In this document: positions 783 through 5,420 of the stretch, piece after piece | How the letters are laid out: each line of letters starts with the position of its first letter | Position numbering within the stretch: position 1 is the stretch's first letter | Assembly (NCBI GenBank): GCA_018667995.1 | Contig: JABIQT010000200.1 | Span: 1-5,815, forward strand | Direction: 5' to 3' | Source of the DNA: Candidatus Latescibacterota bacterium | GTDB lineage: Bacteria; JAAXHH01; JABIQT01 | DNA length: 5,815 nt | Position numbers and translations under genes: made by a program | Notes under the pieces: generated by a model | The model's database searches: none | The model's input: only the letters and a program-made list of their open reading frames with translations | What the model was told of the DNA's origin: nothing

Positions 783-1926
783 GCCACAAACGCTCTGCGA
801 TAGCCCGGGCGGCTAGTTCGTGCCCGGGCGCCTTCCAGTGTCGGTTCTCCGAAAACCACAGACTTCCCGTCAACTTTCTCGCGCCTGCCTCCCCGAACGC
901 CTGAGCCAGATCGATCACCGCCACCTGATGCTCATCGGCATGGGCCTTCAACGAGTCTGTCGTCACCGTCCAGGCTTCCGTAGGCGTGCCCAGCATATTC
1001 ATTCCCGGGATCAAGACCAGCACAGCCCTGGCTTCGTGAGATTCTGCAGCCCTGTAAATATCCCCAAGATACCCGGTGGTGGCTCCGAGCATTGCTTGAC
1101 TGACCAACGGAAAATCAATCCGCCGTGTCTGTGAATCGGCATCAGGCGATGGCAGAGCCAGTGTGCCTTGGTCAGAATCGTCCCGGAAGACGAACAGTCG
1201 GCGGTAACGATCCGCCGTAAAGCGATAGGCGTGGGAACGCGCCCAGAGCCATGCTTTGATCGCGGGCAACCACCGGCTACGATCCTCAATTTTCTCTGGA
1301 TCCACGCTCCGTCTGTCATAGAGAAACCCCTCAATCAGGGCAAACCGATCCGGTTCCAGCAGATTATCGGCGAAGTCGTTGATGCCAAAGAATCCGACAA
1401 GCACTATATCAGGCGATAGTTTTAAGCCATCCTCCTCCAGATACCGCAATTCCTGTAGGGTACTATATCCGGGAAATCCAGCGTTGATCACCTCATACCG
1501 CTCCCCTTCTGTGACCTCGTTTAGTTTGCGCTCCAGCTGTTTGGGATAGGATTCAGACGCTTCCACTCCGAAACCAAAAGTGAATGAATCGCCCAGCGTC
1601 ATGATGCGCACCTTGTCCGCGCCTTTGGGGCCATAGGCGCGATCACGCAGCCCCTGAGCACTGATCTTAACATCAATCTCAAATTCCGGATACCAGTGCC
1701 TTCCGCTGTACGAGGGTGTCAAGCGGACGCCACGAACGGGATCGAGCTGCCACATTCCGTTTGGATGAACCATGGCGATTTGAGGATCGAAGAGGCGTAA
1801 GACCACTTCCAGAACCAATAGGAAAGCGAGACCGGATCCGACAAGAAGGCCCAACACCCCCGCGACTGAACGCAGCCGATGGCGTGGCGCATTGTCATTG
1901 ATCGTAGCGCCCTGCGGATTATTCAT
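763..1926 (-). CDS. Membrane-anchored SGNH/GDSL-family hydrolase
   Basis: 387 residues from the chosen ATG. Residues about 18-46 form one N-terminal membrane segment (rich in L, V and G), followed by a domain probably on the periplasmic side. SGNH blocks are visible: GDSF with nucleophile Ser114, NAGFPGYS with Gly150, and GIND with Asn183. Near the C-terminus is ENRHWKAPGHELAA with His363. The Asp usually three residues before the catalytic His is Glu360 here, and Asn361 sits at the -2 position. Family knowledge: SGNH enzymes are esterases, lipases or carbohydrate O-acyl transferases/esterases. Next to a GT39-like gene, a role in trimming or acylating a surface glycan is an inference. The start at 1926 overlaps the upstream stop (ATGAATAA) and has a GGG eight bases before it. 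An ATG at 1941 would add five residues (MRACP) and is the alternative. Confidence 0.85.
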   Translation of the reverse strand: MNNPQGATINDNAPRHRLRSVAGVLGLLVGSGLAFLLVLEVVLRLFDPQIAMVHPNGMWQLDPVRGVRLTPSYSGRHWYPEFEIDVKISAQGLRDRAYGPKGADKVRIMTLGDSFTFGFGVEASESYPKQLERKLNEVTEGERYEVINAGFPGYSTLQELRYLEEDGLKLSPDIVLVGFFGINDFADNLLEPDRFALIEGFLYDRRSVDPEKIEDRSRWLPAIKAWLWARSHAYRFTADRYRRLFVFRDDSDQGTLALPSPDADSQTRRIDFPLVSQAMLGATTGYLGDIYRAAESHEARAVLVLIPGMNMLGTPTEAWTVTTDSLKAHADEHQVAVIDLAQAFGEAGARKLTGSLWFSENRHWKAPGHELAARAIAERLWRSGLLE

Positions 1927-3460
1927 TGGGCACGCCCGCATTGACCTGTCTATGGTCTGTATAGAAGTTGTATATCACTTCGGAAATGGGGTCATCGGAG
2001 AACAGTCGATACGTCCAATGCGGCAGTTTCCAGTCCAGGTAGGGGTAGTGCCCGCTACTGAAGGGAACTACGCTGAGCAGATTGGTACCGATCAATAGCA
2101 CGATCAAGGCGTATCCGACCAGCTTCTGCCGGACAAGTATATGCTCAAGCATATAGGCTCCAGGTATAAACGCAAGGACCACCAGACAGGCGACATAGCG
2201 CGTCCATATACTCGGATAGAGCAGAGAGTAGCCCGCGATTGCCCCCATAACCATGATAACCGGTATGGCCAGCAATTTCGCGTCGCTTGATGTTGTTTTC
2301 CTGAGGCCTTGCACGACCATAAAGGCGCCGGAACACAGGCATATCACGCTCCAGGATCTCGGATCTACGAGCCGATTCTGGAGCCAGCCGCCCCTGTATG
2401 GCCATACAGGGTTCAGGACGCCACTAGCATACCCGCAAAGAACTGCACCGAATGAGCTCTGCATAATCATGAACACCGCCCACAGTCCAATAGCGGTAAA
2501 GAATTGCGGATCCCTTCGCCCACCGGGGCCCAGGCATCCAAGGTAGATAACAGCAAGGACGAATGGTATACCGAGCAGGTTCATTTCAAAGGCCGCCAGA
2601 TGAAGGTTGTTTAAAACCATGATAGGCGCTCGCCTTGACAGAATGTAGCCAATTGTATCGAGAAACCAAATGGGGCCCAGCTGGAGAACGGCGCCCGCAA
2701 GAGTGATACACAGCAAAAGCAGGCAGAACAGAACAGCGACCCTTTTTCGTACAGATGCGGATGTGAATGCCAAAGCGTGGCAGACCAACCCCAGGGCCAC
2801 AGGACAGAAGACGTAGTAGGCCGTGTAGAAAAATAGTAGCGATACTATCGACAGATAGATCAGCGCGAATCGCTTTCGCTCAAGGACCGCCAAATAAGCG
2901 AGTACGAGCAGGAGCGTCATCAGCACAGTAGTGGAGGTGTATCGTGCCTGCCGCATTAGAAAAAGTAGAGGCGCAGAGGTCGCGAATAGCAGAAGGCCTA
3001 TTTGTGGACTCATCCCCGTCGGGAGAAGGCGCCTGGCGCTCGCGTAGAAAACCGGGACCGTAAAGAGACCGATAACGGCAGATGGTAAACGGGCAGCCCA
3101 GATACTGACCCCAAACACGTGAAACGAGAGTGCAGTCAGGTAGATATTGATCCCGGGATAGAGTTGTCTGTAATCGACGATCTCACCGAGAGGAACAAGC
3201 CCGCCGTTTTTCACGAATGATACGAAAAGGCCTAATATGGTAGGATTTTCGGCCAGCAGAATATTGGTCCACTCAATGATTCGTCCTTCATCGGGATCGA
3301 GGGATAGGTCGCCCAGACGATAGAAAAGCAGAAGGCCGACGGCCGCGGTGCACATAAGTGGCAGCAAATGCGCACGCGCTTGCCTTACACACTGCCTATC
3401 AATTCCATCGATGAATCCCATGGCGGGTCTCTTGAGGTATGCGTTTAGAAACTGTTTCAT
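1919..3460 (-). CDS. GT39/ArnT-like integral-membrane glycosyltransferase
   Basis: 513 residues from the ATG at 3460. After a first membrane segment (about residues 31-50) comes LSLDPDEGRIIEW, with Asp57-Glu58 matching the acidic DE motif in the first outer loop of protein mannosyltransferase/ArnT-type GT-C enzymes. It is followed by YPGINIYLTALSFHVFGVS and WAARLPSAVIGLFTVPVFY, a layout typical of this family. About 10-12 hydrophobic helices follow. Such enzymes move a sugar from a polyprenyl-phosphate donor onto lipid, glycan or protein outside the inner membrane; the acceptor here is unknown. The reading frame extends upstream to a TTG at 3670, but those extra residues look non-coding (Arg/Ser rich, several Cys, no membrane segment). 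ATG 3421, preceded by a weak AAGAGA, is the other possible start. The SGNH hydrolase gene overlaps its stop by 8 bases, implying one transcript. Confidence 0.85.
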   Translation of the reverse strand: MKQFLNAYLKRPAMGFIDGIDRQCVRQARAHLLPLMCTAAVGLLLFYRLGDLSLDPDEGRIIEWTNILLAENPTILGLFVSFVKNGGLVPLGEIVDYRQLYPGINIYLTALSFHVFGVSIWAARLPSAVIGLFTVPVFYASARRLLPTGMSPQIGLLLFATSAPLLFLMRQARYTSTTVLMTLLLVLAYLAVLERKRFALIYLSIVSLLFFYTAYYVFCPVALGLVCHALAFTSASVRKRVAVLFCLLLLCITLAGAVLQLGPIWFLDTIGYILSRRAPIMVLNNLHLAAFEMNLLGIPFVLAVIYLGCLGPGGRRDPQFFTAIGLWAVFMIMQSSFGAVLCGYASGVLNPVWPYRGGWLQNRLVDPRSWSVICLCSGAFMVVQGLRKTTSSDAKLLAIPVIMVMGAIAGYSLLYPSIWTRYVACLVVLAFIPGAYMLEHILVRQKLVGYALIVLLIGTNLLSVVPFSSGHYPYLDWKLPHWTYRLFSDDPISEVIYNFYTDHRQVNAGVPNE

Positions 3461-3897
3461 CTGCGGCCGCAGAATAGAAGCACAGGCGTGGTCAAAGATA
3501 GTCCTACAGCAAGCCCCACGCAAGACGGGACCAAGACGTGACGACTCAGGCATGCAGCCGTGAAGTAATCGTCCCCAAGAGCCTCTAAATGAAAACGACT
3601 CGGGGTCACTTCTGGACCTGAGCTTCGAAAATAGCTTTAATTCTCCTGATCTATAGGTGATATTCTGCAAGCATGACCTTTGCCATTTATGCCCAACAGG
3701 ATGAGGCCTTCGCCACGCGTTACCAAACCGGAGTGAGCCCGACCGACCAAACTGTGGCCTGTCCTGACGGGGCGCACCGCATGAGGATCATCGACACCGT
3801 AAGAAACGTGAATTATCGAAGCAGCAGGTAATAGCAACCGTCCAGATCGAGATTTTTCGAATAGATTCTGGCGTAGTGGTAAATAAGGTAATCACAG

Positions 3898-3972: not shown

Positions 3973-4041
3973 ATTCAGGGATAGTAGCTTGCCCCTGTGA
4001 CCGTAATGGAAGTCATTTCACCAAGAAACGAACGGACATCT

Positions 4042-5022
4042 ATGAGCCAGGAATTAGTTAACTCGGGTGATCCTGTTGACGAGGTATTCCCGCAAGGACC
4101 TGAGGTCGGAGACATCATACCGGAATTCGGTCTGCTTGACCAGAATGGGACGTTGTTCAACTATCGGCACAACGGACGGAAACGAGCGCTGATTCTCTTT
4201 CACCGAAGCGCATCGTGGTGAGGATTCTGCAAATCGCAGCTGGTTGAGCTGCAAGAGAGCCTTGAAGCATCCCGAAGCAATGGCATACAGATATGTGCGG
4301 TGAGCTACGACACCGTGGAGACTCTGGGAAAGTTCGCTCGCAAATATAACATCACATATCCGCTTCTCTCCGACCCAGACAGCAGGGTCATTGGCGCGTT
4401 CGGAATCATGAACACGAACGTCCCGACCGGCCATGCCTGGTACGGAGTGCCGTTCCCAGGCACCTTCATGGTCGACGAATCAGGCGTGGTCATCGAGAAG
4501 TCGTTCTACGCGGATCATGCCGTAAGGGACTCCGTGGGTAGTATGTTGCGGGAGGGAATGCAGGTAGGTTCCCCTGGAAGCGGAAACACAATCCGAGTCG
4601 AGACTGACCCAGTGACGGTTGTAGCCTCATTCCCGTCTAAGACAATACGCCCCGAACAGGTCCAGATCCTTTCGGTTGAGATCAATATCAGCGAGGGATA
4701 TCATATTAACGGCACACCATTGCCGGATGGATACATACCCACCGCTCTGTCCTTCGAGCCCATAGATGGCCTGGTGTATGGTGACACCGAATACCCGGCA
4801 CCCCTCCGACATTACCTGAAAGTCCTCGACGAGACGCTGCACGTATACGAGGGAACCATCACCCTCAAAACACCGGTCAAGGCTATTGCTGTCAGCACAT
4901 ACGACATAAGGGCGAAGTTGACCTATCAGGCCTGTGACGCCACAGGTTGCCTCCTGCCTCAGGAGATCCCCATCCATCTGCAACTTGAGGGACGCGACAA
5001 TGTTTGGGGCGATCTGGAATAG
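4042..5022 (+). CDS. Redoxin (AhpC/TSA-type) fused to DsbD-N-like domain; probable selenoprotein with in-frame TGA
   Basis: 326 residues if TGA 4219-4221 is read as selenocysteine. Residues about 17-165 are a thioredoxin-fold redoxin: VGDIIPEFGLLDQNG, then the active-site stretch LFHRSASW-U60-GFCKSQLVELQ (UxxC, with Cys63), then SYDTVETLGKFA, YPLLSDPDSRVIGAFGI and PGTFMVDESGVV with a probable cis-Pro139. Residues about 187-318 resemble the DsbD N-terminal domain and end in YQACDATGCLLPQEIPI with Cys298 and Cys303. The same frame continues on both sides of the TGA with no other stop. Family knowledge: close relatives carry Cys at this position, and Sec forms of Prx-like redoxins are known. Expected role: peroxide or thiol-disulfide redox chemistry, with the C-terminal cysteines possibly reducing the selenol site. 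The start at 4042 has a weak GGA five bases upstream; ATG 4006 and GTG 3997 are alternatives. No signal peptide is seen from any of them. The alternative reading is a nonsense-mutated gene. Confidence 0.85.
4219..4221 (+). other. In-frame TGA, predicted selenocysteine codon (Sec60)
   Basis: The codons before and after read S-W-TGA-G-F-C-K. In redoxin relatives this slot is the first, catalytic cysteine of a W-C-x-x-C motif, so TGA replaces precisely the residue that selenocysteine replaces in known selenoproteins. A random nonsense mutation would have no reason to hit that codon, although a single TGC or TGT to TGA change cannot be excluded from sequence alone. Confidence 0.82.
4222..4261 (+). 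promoter_or_regulatory. Putative bacterial SECIS element
   Basis: Immediately 3' of the TGA, GCAGCT (4236-4241) pairs perfectly with AGCTGC (4247-4252) around the five-base loop GGTTG (4242-4246). Twenty bases lie between the TGA and the first loop base. Known bacterial SECIS elements have a small apical loop with G in its first two positions, about 16-37 bases after the UGA; this fits, and the GGU loop start resembles that of E. coli fdhF. A weaker lower stem can form between TTCT (4225-4228) and AGAG (4256-4259). Caution: the stem overlaps codons for the conserved QLVELQ, so it is partly dictated by protein sequence. Confidence 0.72.
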
Positions 5023-5066: not shown

Positions 5067-5420
5067 TCACGAGCCGCGTAACGCCTGCGCTATATCATCC
5101 GCAGCTTCCGACACTACACTCATGTCTACCTGATTCGCCACTGCCTCGTATCCTGCCGTCCTGATCATTTTATCCACGCTGGTGCGAACCTGATCCACGG
5201 TCCAGGCTACCGAATCTAGACCGTTCTCCATTTGATGCACTTCGTTCTTCCCCGTGGGATCGTAATGATAATGGGGCGAATCGCGGAAGCAATCGAATCT
5301 CAGAATCTGAATGCGATCGCCATCTACCTCGCCAAATACCAGCAGAGCAGGTCCTCCGTCTGCGCCCAATGTCCTGCTCTCCGCTTCAAACACCAGTCCA
5401 CCTGCCTCGATCGTCTGCAT
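5067..5420 (-). CDS. Small uncharacterised protein with FDCF-PHYHYDP motif
   Basis: 117 residues, acidic, with no signal peptide and no membrane segment, so probably cytoplasmic. I do not recognise a named family. The middle has the striking segment RFDCFRDSPHYHYDPTGKNE, clustering one Cys, two His, aromatic residues and acids. This looks like a conserved core and could hold a metal or ligand, but no function is assigned. Before it are short beta-like stretches (GGLVFEA, ALLVFGEV, RIQILRFD). The C-terminal half (VDQVRTSVDKMIRTAGYEAV onward) looks helical. The ATG at 5420 is well supported: AGGAGG lies eight bases upstream and a near-consensus promoter just beyond. The gene converges with the selenoprotein gene, 44 bases apart, with no clear terminator between them. 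It lies 141 bases downstream of the dioxygenase gene on the same strand. Confidence 0.82.
   Translation of the reverse strand: MQTIEAGGLVFEAESRTLGADGGPALLVFGEVDGDRIQILRFDCFRDSPHYHYDPTGKNEVHQMENGLDSVAWTVDQVRTSVDKMIRTAGYEAVANQVDMSVVSEAADDIAQALRGS

Follow-up and report, generated by a model that had tools for sequence, protein, structure and literature searches.

The gene at positions 4042-5022 of the window (the whole 5,815-nucleotide stretch analysed here) is, judging from its sequence and those of its relatives, almost certainly a selenoprotein gene in which the UGA at 4219-4221 is read as selenocysteine (Sec) to give one protein of 326 residues. The product very probably joins a Sec redoxin to a DsbD-alpha domain within one chain, and an intrachain hand-over of electrons between the two is proposed. 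The Prx-like UxxC selenoproteins to which the redoxin belongs are a known class, and what appears to be new is its fusion to DsbD-alpha, which is not covered by any named model of the searched libraries.

The interrupted frame and its SECIS hairpin

Translation of the forward strand gave a frame of 326 residues in which the only stop is a TGA within the peptide FHRSASW-U-GFCKSQLVELQ (Table 1). This bears out the original prediction of a frame of over 320 codons broken only once, at the position where the redoxin CxxC motif has its first Cys. Both flanks of the TGA align end to end with intact relatives. The start codon is ambiguous, as GTG 3997 and ATG 4003 are in frame and are alternatives to ATG 4042. 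The list of open reading frames made with table 11 splits the frame into an N-terminal fragment of 74 aa (3997-4221) and a second ORF of 240 aa that starts with GTG (4300-5022), so standard annotation would cut this gene, and others like it, in two and lose the active site, as had been foreseen.

Table 1. Features of the selenoprotein gene in the window.
Feature	Position	Strand	Remarks
Complete gene, Sec redoxin and DsbD-alpha fusion (very probable)	4042..5022	+	326 aa plus stop; start codon uncertain
AhpC/TSA redoxin domain, residues 22-151	4105..4494	+	PF00578 91 bits, cut-off 26; predicted fold against M. tuberculosis AhpE Z 22
UGA almost certainly read as selenocysteine, residue 60, UxxC position 1; resolving Cys63 at 4228-4230	4219..4221	+	TGA in 27/30, TGY in 3/30 full-length relatives
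Bacterial SECIS hairpin, 6-bp stem, GGUUG apical loop, UGA-to-loop 20 nt	4236..4252	+	Covariation; constraints in PMC13188914
DsbD_N (DsbD-alpha) domain, residues 197-308	4630..4965	+	PF11412 36 bits, cut-off 25; fold against ScsB N-terminal domain / E. coli nDsbD Z 11.3-12.6
YQACDATGC, residues 295-303, invariant redox pair Cys298/Cys303	4924..4950	+	Aligned to the YQGCADAGFC pair of E. coli DsbD

The window spans the entire contig G000:C600 in the draft genome of the host, which is 6.06 Mb in 1165 contigs and 85% complete. Misassignment of this contig was rejected, as its tetranucleotide profile is closest to the host bin (pooled r 0.875, against 0.745 for the sister genomes and 0.664 for Acidobacteriota). 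The gene is adjoined at its 3' end by a convergent gene for a DUF7700 protein (5067-5420 on the reverse strand, 116 bits), and upstream of it lie divergent genes, at 763-1941 for a GDSL-like hydrolase and at 1919-3670 for a membrane protein of the PMT_2 type.

A hairpin with a GGTTG loop had been predicted at the spacing of a bacterial SECIS, and this was confirmed. It reads GCAGCU-GGUUG-AGCUGC, begins 14 nt past the UGA, and fits all of the constraints published for bSECIS elements; a loop of 3-9 nt, a stem of 4-16 bp, a G in the first two loop positions, a distance of 16-37 nt from the UGA and an MFE <= -7.5 (PMC13188914). The folding energy is -8.9 kcal/mol for the hairpin and -10.9 kcal/mol for the segment. 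By itself this energy is unremarkable (z about -0.4) and the hairpin score was reached by 101 of 2000 random codon draws; energy was therefore dropped as evidence and covariation was used in its place, so that the SECIS claim is carried by the comparative evidence. All six pairs of the stem form in each of 21 distinct Sec sequences, and three of the six pairs have changes on both sides, as in GCAACU...AGUUGC, GCAGUU...AACUGC and CCAACU...AGUUGG. Neither 500 shuffles nor sliding of the register gave a covariation score as high, and the stem is broken in all three Cys homologues (61% of cells paired). A scan of the window at the Rfam gathering thresholds gave no match.

Relatives and the Sec machinery

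Relatives matching at 1e-20 or better were found in 51 of 396 Acidobacteriota genomes, most with one TGA inside, and the UGA form is present in 43 of these 51. The full-length relatives share about 31-36% identity with the window protein across residues ~11-315. Column 60, which had been predicted to hold either Cys or Sec in homologues, does so in all 30 full-length Acidobacteriota relatives read. The motif at this column is UPYC in 26 of the 27 TGA relatives and UHHC in the other, and Sec and Cys have been interchanged three times on the tree of the relatives. Together, the Sec and Cys relatives form a clean set for asking why Sec is kept.

In a sister genome belonging to the window's own order (G001), a redoxin without a DsbD domain has the TGA at the same column (RSASWUPFC). 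This stand-alone Sec redoxin (L025, from 1489 on the forward strand) also has no leader, and may be a cytoplasmic relative of the window gene. A second group of Acidobacteriota sequences (for example G156:C6:1109020, G098:C49:13128 and G235:C1:1724980) matches residues ~10-126 only, at 45-51% identity, which is above that of the full-length family. Their frames are mostly about 390-420 aa, mostly with one TGA, and they would be this redoxin followed by a C-terminal domain that is different or has diverged. No relative of the window protein was detected in the scan of viral contigs. The scan of genome contigs with the single sequence returned DsbD proteins and one distant peroxiredoxin only, and the scan of plasmids only PrxQ/Prx-like relatives of <40% identity.

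The presence of selA, selB, selC and selD in the host was only partly borne out. The draft genome encodes SelA homologues, and a SelD that itself contains Sec (GMAKTCGUAAK, with the TGA followed by a strong hairpin; L021:1393-2442 on the reverse strand, G000:C1058). Neither SelB nor tRNA-Sec turned up in this 85% complete draft, an absence that the original prediction, taken literally, had counted against itself. The weak SelB matches that were opened are CysN/CysC-like and LepA-like GTPases, and the weak tRNA-Sec matches are tRNA-Ser/Leu. Of 15 further genomes from the phylum, 14 have SelB above the cut-off and 13 have a tRNA-Sec scoring >68 bits (anticodon TCA). The two genes adjoin in several of these sister genomes, about 80-170 bp apart (for example G009:C31, 6360-8288 and 8451-8544), and since they are neighbours one missing locus would remove both. 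Their absence from the host is best explained by such a gap in the assembly. A second redoxin with a TGA is a candidate for another selenoprotein of the host; it bears a leader, reads GYW-UPHC and has a SECIS-like hairpin, GCAACU-GGGGC-AGUUGC (L003:1408-1989 on the forward strand, G000:C226). Among those Acidobacteriota genomes that have a relative, 41 of the 43 with the TGA type encode SelB, versus three of the eight with Cys only (Fisher p = 4.5e-4, phylogeny not corrected).

The interrupted frame could also be a pseudogene or a sequencing error, in which a Cys codon was mutated or misread to TGA and the gene is either broken or ordinary. TGA is one base away from TGC and TGT, Cys homologues exist, and the missing selB and tRNA-Sec would fit such a gene. 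This explanation is nevertheless very improbable, as G001 and 27 relatives in other genomes have TGA at this very column, the hairpin has been kept through compensatory changes and is lost in the Cys homologues, the 326 codons have no other disruption, and the same genome encodes both Sec-SelD and the second TGA redoxin. Whether UGA is instead a fixed sense codon of this organism, such as Trp, was also considered, and the chance of this is negligible. The position aligns with a catalytic Cys and not with Trp, a SECIS comes after the UGA, and relatives with the same TGA carry SelB. Only redox cases at Cys columns need UGA as sense among the genes read, and no in-frame TGA at a Trp column was seen among them. 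Decoding as Sec, the reading originally put forward, is thus supported by the identity of the column, the covariation of the SECIS, the Sec machinery in part and the co-occurrence with SelB.

Domain architecture and proposed electron transfer

The N-terminal AhpC/TSA domain with its UGFC motif places the protein in the class of Prx-like UxxC thiol:disulfide oxidoreductases. The best structural match of the predicted redoxin domain is AhpE of M. tuberculosis (1.7-2.0 A over about 150 residues). The C-terminal domain was predicted alone with a pLDDT of 89.9, and matched the N-terminal domain of ScsB (Z 12.6, 123 residues) and those of E. coli and Neisseria DsbD (Z 10.3-11.9), with unrelated immunoglobulin-like folds ranking below the nDsbD matches (Z <10). 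The YQxC...C pair of the fusion family aligns to the redox pair of DsbD, a match that is weak by itself. The domain therefore has both marks of the DsbD-alpha family, an immunoglobulin-like fold and a YQxC...C pair of Cys. PF11412 is the only part of a full DsbD (alpha, transmembrane beta and gamma) that is present. PF00578 and PF11412 were matched by all 17 family members scanned, and all 17 aligned members keep W59, U/C60, C63, Q66 and L67, as well as H221, Q296, C298 and C303 in the second domain.

No NCBIfam model reaches its cut-off with the window protein; the SelL-related redox protein NF040769 scores 42 bits (curated cut-off 120) and the ResA-like WAxxUGC selenoprotein NF041054 scores 30.5 bits (curated cut-off 300). 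There is no fusion-specific model among the families matched by the relatives in the libraries searched. Prx-like selenoproteins of the UxxC type have appeared in catalogues since 2006 (PMC1794560; PMC2398784, as 'Prx-like 1'; PMC13188914, Table 1), and in the portions of these sources available to us they share with the window protein the AhpC/TSA domain, a Sec that opens the UxxC motif, a bSECIS just downstream and the existence of Cys homologues. Compared by description, the entries in those portions are defined by the redoxin domain alone and do not mention a C-terminal DsbD-alpha domain. No paper describing an AhpC/DsbD selenoprotein fusion was found in the open-access literature, where the search led only to a review of 2026, although the 'Redoxin family protein' and 'Prx-like' entries of the review, as far as its available text goes, may have the same architecture (PMC13188914).

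AhpE and PrxQ (BCP) are the best fold and sequence matches of the N-terminal domain, but AhpE, which the title of 1XVW calls a 1-Cys peroxiredoxin, has no U/CxxC pair and no DsbD domain. DsbD and ScsB share the PF11412 domain (above cut-off), its fold and the YQxC...C pair, whereas the window protein has neither the transmembrane DsbD-beta nor the C-terminal gamma domain and its alpha domain sits behind the redoxin. The rhodanese/DsbD fusion-like selenoprotein TsoB (NF045694, PMC13188914) likewise joins a DsbD-related module to a selenoprotein domain, but TsoB is a rhodanese with a UxxxxU motif, and no member of the redoxin fusion family matched NF045694. Novelty had been ascribed to the UGFC variant and to its fusion. 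The former is only a local variant of the UPYC that predominates in the relatives read, and a small variation on a known class; the fusion, whose partner was not identified at the time as DsbD-alpha, is the more interesting part.

From these features the following route may be proposed. SelB acting on the hairpin would deliver Sec-tRNA(Sec) to the UGA, giving a chain in which a redoxin domain of the peroxiredoxin/TlpA-like kind, its active site being U-x-x-C, precedes DsbD-alpha with Cys298 and Cys303. The selenolate of U60 would attack an oxidised substrate, either a disulfide or a peroxide, and C63 would resolve U60 as a Se-S bond. The DsbD-alpha domain would then reduce this selenosulfide within the same chain through C298/C303, and could itself be recharged by a separate transmembrane donor of the DsbD/ScsB type. 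As to the substrate, the clues conflict, as the domain is closest to AhpE/PrxQ yet the UxxC motif is TlpA/ResA-like. Most relatives have a hydrophobic N-terminal leader and look periplasmic. No leader was found for the window protein in any frame upstream, which leaves its compartment in doubt, and with it a periplasmic donor of the DsbD type.

In E. coli, the alpha domain of DsbD hands electrons on to clients with a Trx fold, for example DsbC and CcmG. Fold matches of the C-terminal domain include the complexes 1VRS, 1JZD and 1Z5Y. The two halves of the selenoprotein could nevertheless be independent, with DsbD-alpha serving for docking or for a different client and no electrons passing between U60/C63 and C298/C303. 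In keeping with this, the arrangement of the domains in the predicted full-length model is poorly determined (pTM 0.58), the window protein lacks a leader, and no donor gene for the DsbD-alpha domain is present in the window. Independence is still unlikely, if worth keeping in mind, as both redox pairs are invariant in 17/17 members and reduction of Trx-fold partners is what nDsbD naturally does.

If the intrachain hand-over is correct, a transfer from nDsbD to client that is normally intermolecular would occur in one chain and would reduce a selenosulfide. The fusion offers a concrete hypothesis for the recycling of a Sec redoxin, by a DsbD-type donor in cis; the recycling route is unknown for most Prx-like selenoproteins. 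Tentatively, and with a little less than even confidence, the fusion proteins may be viewed as a family of self-recharging selenoenzymes, each a Sec redoxin joined to its own DsbD-alpha donor, which would occur widely among Acidobacteriota and also in the lineage of the host.

Paralogues of SelA

Two SelA-like proteins are encoded by the host (G000). In the main one (L016:1492-2685 on the forward strand) the catalytic core is present and its PLP-lysine motif reads SGDKLMGGPQAG, but the tRNA-binding N-terminal domain PF12390 is lacking, a point that counts against decoding of the UGA as Sec. The second (L017:1170-2540 on the reverse strand) has PF12390 but a degenerate motif, RSE-FTGGPPCG, with no PLP lysine. 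From their sequences, SelA of the host thus appears to be split across two complementary paralogues, and a heteromeric, two-subunit Sec synthase is our guess. Such a split may matter more than the selenoprotein finding itself. The absence of PF12390 has been described as a mark of SelA that is not used for Sec (PMC4607533); in contrast, the short SelA seen here sits in genomes that for the most part encode tRNA-Sec and SelB. The tRNA-binding paralogue was not found in about 2.36 Mb read of the 3.8 Mb of G006. The short catalytic form without PF12390 is present in 13 sister genomes, and another genome (G015, L124) encodes a SelA of the N-domain-bearing type, like L017, with the motif GGDGLVGGPECG.
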